A stretch of DNA of 64,000 nucleotides from Kocuria marina (lineage in GTDB: Bacteria > Actinomycetota > Actinomycetes > Actinomycetales > Micrococcaceae). The stretch is from positions 430,561-494,560 of the forward strand of contig BMZV01000002.1 of assembly GCA_014652975.1 (NCBI GenBank), given 5' to 3'. The notes under the pieces are model-generated. The model was given only the letters and a program-made list of their open reading frames with translations, was not told where the DNA came from and searched no databases. A program made the position numbers and the translations under genes. Positions 5,558-11,637 of the stretch are shown piece by piece; the stretch's first letter is position 1; each line of letters begins with the position of its first letter.

Positions 5558-7705
5558 TCACGCGTGGCCGGCGTCCTTCATGCGCCGCAGTTCCTTCTTG
5601 AGGTCCGCGATCTCGTCCCGCAGCCGCCCGGCCAGCTCGAACTTCAGCTCGGCGGCGGCGTTGCGCATCTGCTCGCTGAGGTCCTCGATCAGATCCACGA
5701 GGTCCTCGGCGGGTGCGGCCGCGACACCGTCGCGCAGCAGTTTGGACTCCGCGGCGGCCGCGGCCTGATCCTTGCCCGTGGCCTTGCCTGTGGCCTTGCC
5801 CTTACCGCCCTTGACGGGAGCGGTGTGATTGTTGGCGGCGGCGCGCTGGGCCAGCAGGGTGCGGGTGTCCTCGTCCTCGCGTGCCAACTGATCGGTGATA
5901 TCCGCGATCCGCTTGCGCAGCGGTTGCGGATCGATCCCGTGTTCCTCGTTGTACGCGACCTGGATCTCCCGGCGGCGGTTGGTCTCCTCGATCGCAACGT
6001 TCATGGAATTGGTGATCTTGTCCGCGTACATGTGGACTTCACCCGAGACGTTACGGGCGGCGCGACCGATCGTCTGGATCAGGGACGTGGTAGAACGCAG
6101 GAAGCCTTCCTTGTCCGCGTCCAGGATGGCCACGAGGGAGACCTCGGGCAGGTCCAGGCCCTCGCGCAACAGGTTGATGCCCACGAGGACGTCGAACGTG
6201 CCCATGCGCAGGTCCCGCAGCAGTTCCACGCGCTTGAGGGTGTCCACGTCCGAGTGCAGGTACTGGACCCGCACACCGTGTTCCATGAGGTACTCGGTGA
6301 GGTCCTCCGCCATGCGCTTGGTCAGCGTGGTCACCAGGACGCGTTCGTCGCGTTCCACGCGCAGCTCGATCTGTTCCAGCAGGTCGTCGATCTGGCCCTT
6401 GGTGGGTTTGACGATCACCTGGGGGTCCACGAGTCCCGTGGGGCGGATGATCTGCTCCACCACGGAGTCCACCTTGGACATCTCGTACGGCCCCGGGGTC
6501 GCGGACATGTACATGGTCTGCCCGATTCGTTCCAGGAACTCGTCCCATTTCAGGGGGCGGTTGTCCATGGCGGACGGCAACCGGAAGCCGTGTTCCACCA
6601 GCGTGCGCTTGCGGGACATGTCCCCCTCGTACATGCCACCGATCTGCGGCACGGTCACGTGGGACTCGTCGATGATGAGCAGGAAGTCGTCCGGGAAGTA
6701 ATCCAGCAGACAGTGGGGAGCGGAACCGCGCGGGCGGCCGTCGATGTGCAGCGAGTAGTTCTCGATCCCGTTGCAGTAGCCCATTTGTTCCATCATCTCG
6801 AGGTCGTACGTGGTGCGCATGCGCAACCGCTGGGCCTCCACGAGCTTGTTCTGCGACTCGAGCTCCTGCAGCCGCTCCTGCAGCTCCTTCTGGATGGACT
6901 CGATCGCCGAGGCCATCCGTTCCGCACCGGCCACGTAGTGCGAGGCGGGGAAGACGTACATCTCCTGCTCCTCGTTTACGATCTCCCCCGTGAGCGGGTG
7001 CAGCGTGTAGATCGCCTCGATCTCGTCCCCGAAGAACTCGATGCGCACCGCGAGTTCCTCGTACATGGGGATGATCTCCACGGTGTCCCCGCGCACGCGG
7101 AACGTCCCGCGGTGGAAGTCCACGTCGTTGCGCACATACTGCATGTTCACGAACTGACGCAGCAGGGTGTCCCTGTCCATCTCCTGGCCCACGGCCAGGG
7201 TGACCATTTGATTGACGTACTCCTCCGGGGTACCCAGACCGTAGATGCAGGACACGGTGGAGACCACCACGGTGTCGCGGCGGGTCAGCAGGGCATTGGT
7301 CGCGGAGTGCCGCAACCGCTCGACCTCCTCGTTGATCGAGGAGTCCTTCTCGATGAAGGTGTCCGTCTGGGGGACGTAGGCCTCCGGCTGGTAGTAGTCG
7401 TAGTAGGAGACGAAGTACTCGACGGCGTTGTGGGGCAGCAGTTCGCGCAGCTCGTTGGCCAGCTGGGCGGCCAGGGTCTTGTTCTGCACGAGCAACAGCG
7501 TGGGCCGCTGGACGGCCTCGATGAGCCATGCGGCGGTCGCGGACTTACCCGTGCCCGTGGCGCCCATGAGTACCACGTCCTTCTCCCCGCCCTCGATCCG
7601 GCGGGACAGGTCCGCGATGGCCTTGGGCTGGTCACCGGCGGGCTGGTACTCGGACACGACCTCGAACGGGGCGACCACACGATTGATCTTCTGCGCGAGC
7701 GACAT
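5558..7705 (-). CDS. uvrB: excinuclease ABC subunit B
   Basis: A 715-residue UvrB, the damage-verifying helicase-like subunit of nucleotide excision repair, which takes DNA from UvrA and recruits UvrC. Walker A GATGTGKS is at about residues 48-55, the beta-hairpin region [13 protein letters not shown] at about 100-112, and the DEAD-like IDESHVT near 348. Helicase motifs V/VI (QTIGRAARN) lie near 560. A UVR motif for UvrC contact occupies the last 40 residues. A basic linker rich in Lys/Ala/Gly at about 635-660 is a lineage extension. It sits next to coaE, as in many actinobacteria. Confidence 0.97.
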
Positions 7706-7767: not shown

Positions 7768-8394
7768 TCACAGGACCCGCGTGCGCCACCACTCGTCCAC
7801 CTGCGCGAGCAGGTCCTTGATGGTCGTGGAATTGTCGAGGACTGCCGTGGCCACCGCCCGGCGCTGCTCGTCGCTGGCCTGGGCCGCGATCCGGCGGCGG
7901 GCGTCCTCCGGGCTCATCCCGCGGTCCTCGACCATCCGTCGCACCCGCTCGTCCTCGGGCGCCTGCACCACGAGCACCTCGTCCATCGTCTCGTACTGAG
8001 CGGTCTCCACGAGCAGCGGGATGTCGTGGACCACCACTCCCCCCGGCGGCACCTCACTCACGAGCCGCGCGGTCTCGCGCCGCACGAGCGGGTGGATGAT
8101 CCCGTTCAGGGCCGCGAGCTGCTCGGGGTCGTCGAACACGATGGCCGCGACCGCCGCGCGGTCCAGTGCGCCCGAGTCCGGCTGCACGATCCGCTCACCG
8201 AAGTGGGCCACCATGGCCTCGTAGCCTGGTTCCCCCGGTTCCTGCAGGGCCCGGGCGATCGCGTCCGCGTCCACGACAAGCGCCCCGAGCTCGCTCAGCC
8301 GCCGCGAGACGGTGGACTTGCCCGAGGCGATCCCGCCCGTCAGCCCGACCCGCAGGGTCTCGGTGTGGCCGGGTCTGCGCAACAGCTCAGTCAT
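7768..8394 (-). CDS. coaE: dephospho-CoA kinase
   Basis: A 208-residue kinase that phosphorylates the 3'-OH of dephospho-CoA in the last step of CoA synthesis. The P-loop GGIASGKST lies at about residues 20-28, followed by VVDADAIAR and later the HDIPLLVET and GMSPEDARRRI motifs of the family. ATG 8394 is chosen because GGAAGGA precedes it; the longer frame upstream belongs to another gene's tail. It overlaps by eight bases the out-of-frame end of the kinase-like tail of the neighbouring transporter gene, which is a degenerate relative of this same protein. Confidence 0.95.
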   Translation of the reverse strand: MTELLRRPGHTETLRVGLTGGIASGKSTVSRRLSELGALVVDADAIARALQEPGEPGYEAMVAHFGERIVQPDSGALDRAAVAAIVFDDPEQLAALNGIIHPLVRRETARLVSEVPPGGVVVHDIPLLVETAQYETMDEVLVVQAPEDERVRRMVEDRGMSPEDARRRIAAQASDEQRRAVATAVLDNSTTIKDLLAQVDEWWRTRVL

Positions 8395-10758
8395 GACGGT
8401 GTCCTTCCGTGTCCTGGTCCCGGCCCAGTGCCGGGAGCACGTGGTCGCGCCAGATCTCGCGGGAGCGCTCCCGCAGACCGTGGAGGTCACCGTCGTTGAC
8501 GATCACCTCGTCCGCGACCGCCCGGATCTCCTCCGGCCCGGCGGCCACGTCCACCCGGCCCCCGCGTCCTCGGCGGGCAGGCCCTTACCTGCGCGCAACC
8601 TCCGCACCCGGTCCTCCACGGGCGCGTCGACGGCCACGACGAGGTCGAACCGGTCCCCCTGGTCCGCCTCGAGCGGGTCCCGGATCACCTGCACGACCAC
8701 GCTGTCGGGTCCCGCGTCCCGGGCACGACGCCGCGCCGCCTCCCGCAGCGCGGGGAGCAACAGTTCGTGGGCGCGGGCCCTGGCGGCGTCGTTGTGAGTC
8801 ATCAGGTCGTCGAGCGCCTCGGCCGCAGCGGCCTTGTCCTGCGAAGAGACCCCCCGGGCGCGCAACTGCTCCCCGAAGACGCGCTCGACGTCCGCGCGCG
8901 TGTCCGTGCCCGGGCTCAGGAGCTCGCCCCACAGCGCCGAGCTGTCCACGACGACGGCGCCCAGCGCCTCGAACTCGCGGGCCACGGTGTGCTTGCCCGC
9001 CGACGGCCCACCGGTGAGCGCGAGCTGGAACACCGGCCGGCCCTCCTGCTCTCGCTGCCAGTGCCACGTGCGGGGCTGATGGGTGTCGTGATCGGGTTCG
9101 GTGCCCACCTCGTACTCGGGACGGATGACGTAGTCCTCGATCGCGGCGGTGTCCTGCTGCGCCCTGCGGTGGTACTCCTCCGCGGGCAGCACCTTCTTCC
9201 ACTGCCGCGTGCGCATGGGACGCGCGGTACCGGCGTCCTGGCGTAACGCCCGCAACAGCATCCCGGCCTGCATGACCTCCAGGACCATCACGGGAGCACC
9301 GATCACGATGATGACCTCCTGCAGGGCGTTGAGCCCGTTCTCGCCGGAGGTCGTGATGATCGCGGCACACACCGCGCCCACGGCGAGCGTCCAGAAGATC
9401 CGCTGCCGGCGCGGGCCTTCGTCCTCGTGCCCATTGGCCATCGCGTCCATCACGAGAGCGCCGGAGTCGATCGAGGTGATGAAGAAGATCGTGATGACCA
9501 CGAGCGCCACGAGCGCGGTGACCGCGAACCACGGCATGGATCCGAGCAACTGGAACAGAGCGGCCTCCACGTTGCCTTGCGTGACGATGGTGTCCGTGAG
9601 ACTGCCCTGCGTCTCGGGAGCGCGGTCGATGCGGATCGCGCTGTAGCCGTAGATGGCCATCCACACCGCCACGAACGACGACGGGACGCCGAGCACCCCC
9701 ACCACGAACTGGCGGATCGTGCGCCCGCGCGAGATCTTGGCCACGAACATCCCCACGAACGGCGCCCATGTGACGGTCCAGGCCCAGTAGAACACCGTCC
9801 AGTCACCGGACCACGTGCCGCCGCCGAACGTGTCGTTGAAGAACGCGAGCGTGGGCAACTGGTTCACGTAGCCACCCACGGATTCCACGATGCTGCGCAT
9901 CGTGTCCATTGTGGCCCCGGCCATGAGCACGAACAGCAACAGGGCCACGGCCAGGACGATGTTCGCGTACGACAGTCGCTTGACGCCCTTCTCCATGCCC
10001 GCGAGCACGGACGCCAGGCCCACCGCCGTGATCAGCGCGATGATGGCCGCCTGGATCCACCCCTCCATCGGGATGCCGTAGACGTATGTGAGGCCGCTGT
10101 TGATCTGCAGCGCCCCGAGCCCCACGGACACCGCGAGCCCGAACACGGTCGCGACGATCGAGAGCACGTCGATCGCTTTTCCCCACGGGCCGTGGATCCC
10201 GTCCCCGAGCACCGGGTGGAACGCGGACGAGACGCGCGGGGGCAGTTTGCGCTTGTACGTGAAGTACCCGAACGTCAGACCGGGTACGGCGAGGATCGCC
10301 CACATGTGCACGCCGAAGTGGAAGTTGGCGATGTTCAGGGCCTCCACCGCGGCGCGGTCCGAGGCGGGTTCGGTGCCGTACATGGGTGGGTTCGCGTAGT
10401 GGTTGACGGGTTCGGCCACACCCCAGAACATCAGCACGGCGCCCACGCCCGCCGCGAAGAGCATCCCGAACCACGCGATCCCGGAGTACTCCGGGACGGA
10501 ATCGTCGTCGCCGATCTTCACGCGACCGTAGCGGCTCAGTGCCAGACCGATCGCGAAGATCACGAGAGCGGTCACGCTGAAGGTGTAGAACCATCCCGTC
10601 TGGTAGCGCAACGCATGGGAGACCACGCCGAAGACCGATTGCACGGGCCCCGGGAACAGACTCATGGCGAGCGTGAAGACAACGATCAGCGCGGCCGAGA
10701 CGAAGAAGATGGACGGGGTCGTGCGCAACCCCAGTCGGTCGTGAAGACGATTGAGCAC
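8387..10758 (-). CDS. BCCT-family transporter fused to a CoaE-like domain (frame break near 8557)
   Basis: The uninterrupted frame (8503-10758) gives 751 residues. Residues 1-about 550 form a BCCT (betaine/choline/carnitine) carrier with about 12 helices and the Trp-rich signature FYWAWTVTWAPFVGMFVAKI. After a 25-residue linker, residues 576 onward resemble dephospho-CoA kinase, with P-loop GGPSAGKHT at about 583-591. Near residue 735 the frame breaks in a G/C run (8554-8563). The family sequence resumes in the other frame as RVDVAAGPEEIRAVADEV and runs to a TGA at 8389-8387, which overlaps the coaE start. One missing base would restore a protein of about 790 residues. The domain lacks the family's DxDxIAR and DIPLL residues, so catalysis is doubtful. 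Start GTG 10758 has only a weak ribosome binding site. Confidence 0.85.
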
Positions 10759-10914: not shown

Positions 10915-11637
10915 GTGCCCGCCGAATCCCTCTCCCACGACGCCGCGGACTCGCGCGTGTCCTACACCGTCCCGCGCCGGGGCATCGTGCACAGCGTGGA
11001 GCTCGAGATCAAGAAGTCCCGGTTCCTGGCACTACTCACCCGCGTGGACACGGAAGCGGAAGCCCGCGAGTTCATCACCCGTGTGGCCGCCGAACACCGG
11101 GACGCCCGTCACCACTGCTCGGCGTTCGTGCTCGGACCCACGCGCGCCACGACGCGCTCGTCCGACGACGGCGAACCGGCGGGTACCGCGGGCATGCCCA
11201 TGCTGCAGGCGCTGACCGCGCACGCCACGACCCGGCAACGCACCGCGGACGAGGCCGGTGACCTCTCGGACGTGTGTGCCGTGGTCGTGCGGTGGTTCGG
11301 CGGGGTCAAGCTCGGGGCCGGCGGGCTCGTGCGCGCCTACTCCGGTGCCGTGGCCGCCGCGCTGGACACCGCCCCGCTCGTGCGCAGGATGCGCTGCCGC
11401 GAACTGACCCTGCTGCTCCCCTACGCCGAGGCCGGCCGCGTGGAGTCCCAGATGCGCGCTCGCGGGTTCACGGTCCTGCCCACCGGTTACGGCTCCGCGG
11501 ACGCGACCCTGCGCCTGCTCGTGGCGGACCTCCCCGGCGCCATCGACGATGCCCGGGCAGCCCTTGCGAGTATCACCGCGGGCCACGCGAGCGTCCACGA
11601 GGGACCCGCCCGGTGGGAGGACGTCCCGGACATGTGA
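10915..11637 (+). CDS. YigZ/IMPACT-family protein
   Basis: A 240-residue protein of the UPF0029/IMPACT family. The N-terminal IMPACT domain (about residues 20-135) includes KKSRFLALL, HHCSAFVLG, SSDDGEPAGTAGMPML and VVRWFGGVKLGAGGLVRAY. The C-terminal DUF1949-like ferredoxin-fold domain occupies about residues 150-215. The family is widespread; translation-related or nucleic-acid-related roles have been suggested, but the bacterial function is unsettled. The GTG at 10915 is the first start after a -10-like TACACT, and the N-terminus reads PAESLSHDAADSRVSYTVP. The gene is divergent from the BCCT transporter and convergent with rpsA. Confidence 0.88.
   Translation: MPAESLSHDAADSRVSYTVPRRGIVHSVELEIKKSRFLALLTRVDTEAEAREFITRVAAEHRDARHHCSAFVLGPTRATTRSSDDGEPAGTAGMPMLQALTAHATTRQRTADEAGDLSDVCAVVVRWFGGVKLGAGGLVRAYSGAVAAALDTAPLVRRMRCRELTLLLPYAEAGRVESQMRARGFTVLPTGYGSADATLRLLVADLPGAIDDARAALASITAGHASVHEGPARWEDVPDM

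Follow-up and report, generated by a model that had tools for sequence, protein, structure and literature searches.

Carriers of the BCCT family, such as BetP, BetT and TmaT, share one fold, and the activity of BetP is set by a cytosolic C-terminal domain, as described in an excerpt of a review (PMC10710835). The same excerpt treats transporters with CBS, UspA or cyclic-nucleotide-binding sensor domains, in which the added domain is thought to give control, often by nucleotide; none of those treated in the excerpt carries a metabolic kinase turned pseudokinase. In this study we focus on 64,000 nucleotides of Kocuria marina DNA (assembly GCA_014652975.1, contig BMZV01000002.1, positions 430,561 to 494,560), referred to as the window, in which a BCCT carrier continues in one open reading frame (ORF) into a domain related to CoaE, the dephospho-CoA kinase of coenzyme A (CoA) synthesis. 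Control of BetP by its cytosolic C-terminal domain is the arrangement to which this added C-terminal domain can be likened.

Fold and order of motifs are shared between the fused domain and CoaE (PF01121, TIGR00152). In mycobacterial CoaE-GrpB(UPF0157) and in the animal CoA synthase the partners of the CoaE part are soluble and the CoaE part is an active enzyme, unlike in the carrier fusion, although there too CoaE is one domain of a larger polypeptide (6n39, 2f6r). Along the profile of the fusions, matches with solved BCCT chains go no further than position 510, and those with solved CoaE chains begin at about 566-581; even BetT, at 685 aa, is matched only to its residue 505. A transporter of such make-up was unfamiliar when the locus was first annotated, and indeed no description of a fusion between BCCT and dephospho-CoA kinase was found in the full text of the open-licence PMC papers searched.

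A carrier and a kinase-like domain in one frame

The initial annotation had placed the fusion at 8387..10758, with a full BCCT carrier leading in frame into a CoaE-like domain and the genuine coaE directly downstream. Both domains do lie in one open frame and coaE follows as described, but the end has to be corrected, as the frame stops at 8503. The features are as follows.

8503..10758, minus strand: BCCT-CoaE-like fusion ORF, 751 codons, GTG start at 10758, stop at 8503
9235..10710, minus strand: BCCT carrier domain, predicted membrane part, residues 17-508 (Pfam PF02028, E 3.3e-165)
9046..9234, minus strand: conserved BCCT C-terminal tail and linker, residues 509-571 (RTRQWK..LP.EEY.RR .. 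RPEYEVGTEP..THQPRTW)
8563..9024, minus strand: CoaE-like (pseudokinase) domain as far as the frame holds, residues 579-732 (PF01121, 52.4 bits)
8986..9012, minus strand: altered P-loop GGPSAGKHT, from the sequence
8503..8562, minus strand: frame-shifted tail, 19 residues and stop, in place of the conserved domain end
8387..8562, minus strand: stretch coding the domain end in relatives (AW..VD .. VIVND .. IW), out of frame here
7768..8394, minus strand: genuine coaE (dephospho-CoA kinase), 208 aa, by family match

The carrier part matches PF02028 over all positions (1-485 of 485) and passes the curated BCCT cut-off of TIGR00842 (488.6 bits against 407.55); with the glycine betaine equivalog NF047988 it scores 475.9 bits, below the cut-off of 650. 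Similarly, the CoaE-like domain passes the family cut-off of PF01121 (27 bits), and its scores below the cut-offs of the equivalog TIGR00152 (23.8 against 65.55) and of PRK03333 (81.3 against 215) are those of a domain shortened by a frame shift. The genuine coaE, with its start at 8394, is intact and reaches 199.3 bits with PF01121; together with the fusion it accounts for all CoaE matches in this genome. Further BCCT matches are found at three places, at 33-37% identity, plus weak pieces at a fourth.

In the fused domain of the window the DxDxIAR and DIPLL motifs of CoaE are replaced by DSSALW and VIRDP, and the P-loop reads GGPSAGKHT. Ser occupies the position of the catalytic Asp32, Asp that of Leu114, and Leu that of the His of the HP motif.

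The window copy is moreover cut short. Against genome G008 (96.6% identical over 3,001 aligned bases), one gap column falls near position 8,563, in G-rich sequence. Past this point the window reads 19 unrelated residues where its relatives have about 58 conserved ones, and the frame used by the relatives ends with a stop at 8387-8389 rather than at 8503. In nine other genomes of the genus the domain is intact, with no frame shift, and intact as well is the K. marina database protein P0001 (790 aa, 107 member sequences), 97% identical to the window where the searched region could be aligned. The shift may be a strain mutation or an assembly error; if it is real, any switch formed by the domain is likely impaired in this strain.

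Distribution of the fusion

Conservation in related strains, in question when the locus was first annotated, could be followed through the genus and the family. One-frame fusions are present in 10 of the 27 Kocuria genomes, the window included, and 16 have no fused match. The remaining one, the K. atrinae type (G001, locus L039, a draft assembly listed as 79% complete), has BCCT and CoaE-like parts in several frames, its BCCT being broken too; it is the only place where the two parts lie in different frames, and an independent gene for the kinase-like part, which the initial annotation had named as evidence against a fusion, was not seen in the relatives.

A full-length match occurs in 28 of 395 family genomes, namely 10 of the window's genus, 7 of a group g4 and 11 of a group g14. 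Group g4 is called Citricoccus-like here, P0053, from a metagenome-assembled genome named Citricoccus, being near the g4 proteins and P0056, in the same group, being labelled Microbacterium; g14 is called Micrococcus, P0035 (M. luteus) sharing 96% identity with the G144 domain, which served as query. The fusion is not universal in g4, since genome G084 has a single CoaE. Both parts share one open frame at 28/28 loci, though in the window no further than the shift, and the frame stays open through the whole domain in 27 of the 28 genomes, the window being the exception. The fusion is thus real and conserved.

Three database searches (32, 15 and 24 new) brought together at least 71 protein clusters in which the two Pfam domains occur together, a lower bound because the searches scored the best-sharing candidates or gave 120 of 129 matches. 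Their names include several Kocuria and Micrococcus species, Citricoccus and the gammaproteobacterium Luteimonas, and the fused M. luteus cluster alone has 565 members. Judged from these sequences, at least three genera have the fusion, and it is older than a single genome would suggest. P0020 is labelled Glutamicibacter yet sits among Kocuria sequences. Gammaproteobacterial fusions are represented by P0065-P0075, in which the P-loop Lys is replaced by Arg; P0066 belongs to Luteimonas sp. JM171, and P0065 is also named Luteimonas. No fused copy was seen among 369 gammaproteobacterial genomes, an uninformative sample as it held no genome known to carry the fusion.

Dephospho-CoA kinase is the name given by at least one source to 22 of the 25 named fused clusters, so that models built from genomes may register a CoA enzyme and overlook an osmolyte carrier. 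The other three (P0045, P0052, P0057) bear carrier names, for ectoine/glycine betaine/proline or choline/glycine/proline betaine transport.

In all 29 fused genomes checked, frame-broken G001 included, a separate coaE is present (182-203 bits with PF01121), and each of six fusion-free genomes has one CoaE (35 genomes searched with PF01121). Over 49 genomes of the order and 61 of the family, a second CoaE above the cut-off was found only together with the fusion. The exception, G049, stems from a single gene matched in two pieces; a second match in G083 lies below the cut-off.

Origin of the fused domain

When 40 fused rows, 38 of them different, were placed in a tree with 44 free CoaE domains, a branch with support 100/99 set all the fused ones apart. 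This branch survives the removal of eight motif columns (100/99, and 100% of 200 bootstrap trees), and the fused clade is recovered at 100/98 in an enlarged tree with 55 further sequences. Since all 40 rows form one clade, the trees assign the fused CoaE domains one origin, in a single fusion event.

In the enlarged tree the fused clade joins free coaE sequences from Micrococcus and g4 (99/94) rather than those from Kocuria; three of the 26 order rows intended as outgroup landed inside the family. The initial annotation had seen in the locus a coaE duplication captured by the neighbouring transporter gene. Local capture of this genome's own coaE is rejected by that grouping and by the presence of the fusion in at least three genera.

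In the BCCT tree, the fused carriers form a clade (100/99) together with a truncated unfused carrier of G027 (L187:69-1355), which lies directly upstream of coaE. The unfused K. palustris BCCT adjoins this clade and ends shortly past the shared tail, at ..GTEPEYETHQPRTW, so that the kinase was added behind a pre-existing BCCT tail. Kocuria fusions stand near the base of the fused clade (82-88% support). A transfer of the fusion into Kocuria is suggested by the CoaE tree but not by the BCCT tree, and the genus may have either inherited or received it. Luteimonas-like carriers are nested in the Citricoccus-like ones (100/100), although the CoaE trees leave the position of these rows unresolved; the Luteimonas fusions were likely obtained by horizontal transfer. 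In the g4 genome G029 (L124), the free coaE falls with the Citricoccus-like ones and the fused domain, identical to P0027, falls with the Kocuria fusions in the CoaE tree.

Kinase residues and selection

Five residues of the kinase were followed through the fused rows (10 Citricoccus-like, 6 Luteimonas-like, of which two are named Luteimonas, 2 intermediate, 10 Kocuria, 12 Micrococcus) and 44 free CoaE. The numbers of rows keeping each residue are given in this order of groups, followed by the fewest changes on the tree.

P-loop Lys (K14): 10/10, 0/6, 2/2, 9/10, 4/12; free 44/44; 3 changes
Asp32 equivalent: 10/10, 6/6, 2/2, 2/10, 11/12; free 44/44; 2 changes
His of HP: 9/10, 6/6, 0/2, 0/10, 0/12; free 44/44; 2 changes
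Pro of DIPLL: 9/10, 5/6, 0/2, 0/10, 0/12; free 44/44; 3 changes
Leu114 equivalent: 9/10, 4/6, 0/2, 0/10, 10/12; free 44/44; 4 changes

The loss of DxDxIAR and DIPLL noted at first for the window is no general feature of the fusion: 9 of 10 Citricoccus-like rows, all but G029, keep the five residues. Because several changes are needed on the tree and the replacing residues differ by lineage, the degeneration was parallel. At the P-loop position, Lys is found in 43 and Arg in 28 of the at least 71 clusters (motif script). Conversely, the equivalent of Arg140 in the ATP pocket is kept in 40/40 fused rows, window included, and the motif AW..[ILVM]D in 70 of 71 clusters, the one miss being a partial sequence. 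Beyond its place on a carrier, the fused domain differs from CoaE in a fusion-only Trp, found in 39/39 intact fused rows and in 0/44 free CoaE (the window row was left out, its Trp in that column stemming from the shifted tail), in the loss of catalytic Asp, acceptor-cleft Leu and HP His from most or all Kocuria rows and, for the window, in a score below the TIGR00152 cut-off.

The weight of these changes can be gauged from CoaE of Mycobacterium tuberculosis. In an excerpt of PMC3019153, the D32A mutant retains about 5% and K14A about half of the efficiency, no activity is left in R140A, R140K fails to bind an ATP analogue, and the cleft for dephospho-CoA has Leu114 in its lining. From these effects the Kocuria fused domain is predicted to lack CoaE activity while still being able to retain a nucleotide pocket. 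Loss of activity is less firmly founded for Micrococcus than for Kocuria and is not certain, and the Citricoccus-like fused domains may be active.

Omega values (Nei-Gojobori) were compared over 17 of 18 genome pairs, G091-G172 being left out as its sequences hardly differ. The median is 0.22 (0.12-0.48) for the fused domain, 0.20 (0.12-0.40) for the real coaE and 0.08 (0.02-0.33) for the BCCT part. The fused domain is about as strongly constrained as the working enzyme, though its active site is not kept, and a decay of the domain is contradicted by these values.

Structure models

A full-length model was obtained for P0001, a close relative rather than the window copy, from fusion-only sequences (pLDDT 80.7, pTM 0.63), with tail and linker parts below pLDDT 50. 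It fits TmaT with TMt 0.95; among the 50 matches listed, TmaT 8zxk reaches TMt 0.95-0.96 and BetP 0.85-0.93. The CoaE-like domain of K. salsicia was modelled separately with pLDDT 87, and its best matches are dephospho-CoA kinases, so that this model places the fused domain in the CoaE fold.

What the fused domain may do

The explanation that we favour, and to which we give about an even chance, is that the fusion joins a BCCT carrier to a kinase-derived domain which has lost catalytic residues and would serve as a regulatory tail on transport, binding a nucleotide or a CoA precursor. A second CoaE copy would have been freed from making CoA, and would now lie on the cytosolic side of every protomer in a BCCT trimer. 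Through the kept P-loop glycines and Arg140 it could still bind nucleotide, and its open/closed or oligomeric state might be passed to the carrier through the conserved tail, so that the uptake of osmolytes would depend on CoA or energy status. We infer a role in sensing or regulation, which purifying selection and the kept Arg140 make likelier.

Several points weigh against this explanation. Purifying selection does not say for which function the domain is kept, and both the ligand binding of the tail and its effect on transport are putative. Since nothing checked is lost in 9 of 10 Citricoccus-like rows, these domains may be active CoaE on a leash. Activity loss in Micrococcus is made uncertain by the kept Asp32 (11/12), Leu114 (10/12) and Lys (4/12) and by the half efficiency that M. 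tuberculosis K14A retains in the excerpt of PMC3019153. In Kocuria the change of Leu114 to Asp alters the dephospho-CoA site, which argues against sensing of a CoA precursor there. The K. salsicia model rests on 12 sequences, 9 of them true CoaE, which favours a CoaE fold, and the P0001 model is less sure than the domain model. Finally, the copy in the window is itself truncated by the frame shift.

More tentative, with a chance clearly short of even, is the wider joint claim that a CoA-synthesis kinase was taken up a single time as sensor of an osmolyte carrier, passed stepwise and in parallel from enzyme to pseudokinase with living intermediates, spread to Gammaproteobacteria, and reads nucleotide or CoA-pathway status to couple it to osmolyte uptake in trimeric carriers.

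The main rival, which we regard as rather improbable, is that the fused domain co-assembles with the authentic CoaE made from the next gene, keeping it at the membrane or in an inactive trimer, and that CoA synthesis rather than transport is regulated. Indeed, coaE is the next gene at 28/28 fused loci and its start codon precedes the stop of the fusion at 20 of them, M. tuberculosis CoaE changes from an active monomer to a trimer proposed to be inactive and back (excerpt of PMC3123319), and our PDB search gave entries of three chains for 13 of 20 BCCT and 5 of 15 CoaE rows. However, the genes do not overlap in this way at the other 8 loci, the window included, overlapping genes are common in operons, and Luteimonas-type fusions look transferred, though their coaE neighbourhood is unseen.

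Next in rank, and likewise improbable, the fused domain could still be an enzyme held at the membrane, either a working dephospho-CoA kinase (Citricoccus-like) or a kinase of changed substrate (Kocuria, Micrococcus). The fused domains of 6 of 7 g4 genomes score 183.6-192.9 bits, like free coaE, the Citricoccus-like rows keep K14 and D32 (10/10 each) and Leu114 (9/10), and Arg140 is universal. The Kocuria domains fit this poorly, having lost the catalytic Asp in 8 of 10 rows, where the low efficiency reported for D32A (excerpt of PMC3019153) is of weight, and the acceptor-cleft Leu in 10 of 10; the window domain, for its part, misses the TIGR00152 cut-off.

It is quite improbable that the domain is a neutral leftover, a redundant coaE copy stuck on a carrier and decaying. 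Repeated loss of active-site residues, the frame shift in the window and a K. palustris carrier that does without the domain would agree with it, but omega in the 17 pairs is like that of real coaE, the frame is open through the domain in every fused genome except the window, and the AW..[ILVM]D motif and Arg140 are kept almost or fully throughout. An artefact of assembly or gene calling, as the frame shift at the end of the window ORF might hint, can practically be dismissed for the fusion: 27 genomes besides the window carry it in one frame, and it recurs in at least 71 clusters drawn from several sources.

Should the regulatory tail on transport be confirmed, bacteria as common as Micrococcus luteus would possess a carrier under the control of a domain drawn from cofactor synthesis, and osmotic stress would be coupled with the status of CoA or energy. 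Moreover, the graded series from intact to degenerate kinase on one carrier makes it testable how a freed enzyme copy becomes a regulatory pseudoenzyme.

Gene neighbourhood and other fusions

Two further genes flank the locus.

5558..7705, minus strand: uvrB, next gene downstream of coaE, by family match
10915..11637, plus strand: divergent gene upstream of the fusion, from the sequence

At all 28 fused loci uvrB follows coaE. The divergent gene, which we take to be YigZ/IMPACT-like, has a resembling counterpart, judged by eye, at one Micrococcus and one Citricoccus-like locus. Tandem pairs of fused BCCT-CoaE genes occur in two g14 (Micrococcus) genomes, at G068:C1:846989-851936 and G204:C23:11526-16421. 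CoaE is also joined to other partners, among them prepilin peptidase, pseudouridine synthase, TldD-type proteins and formamidopyrimidine-DNA glycosylase, in P0076-P0165, mostly small clusters.

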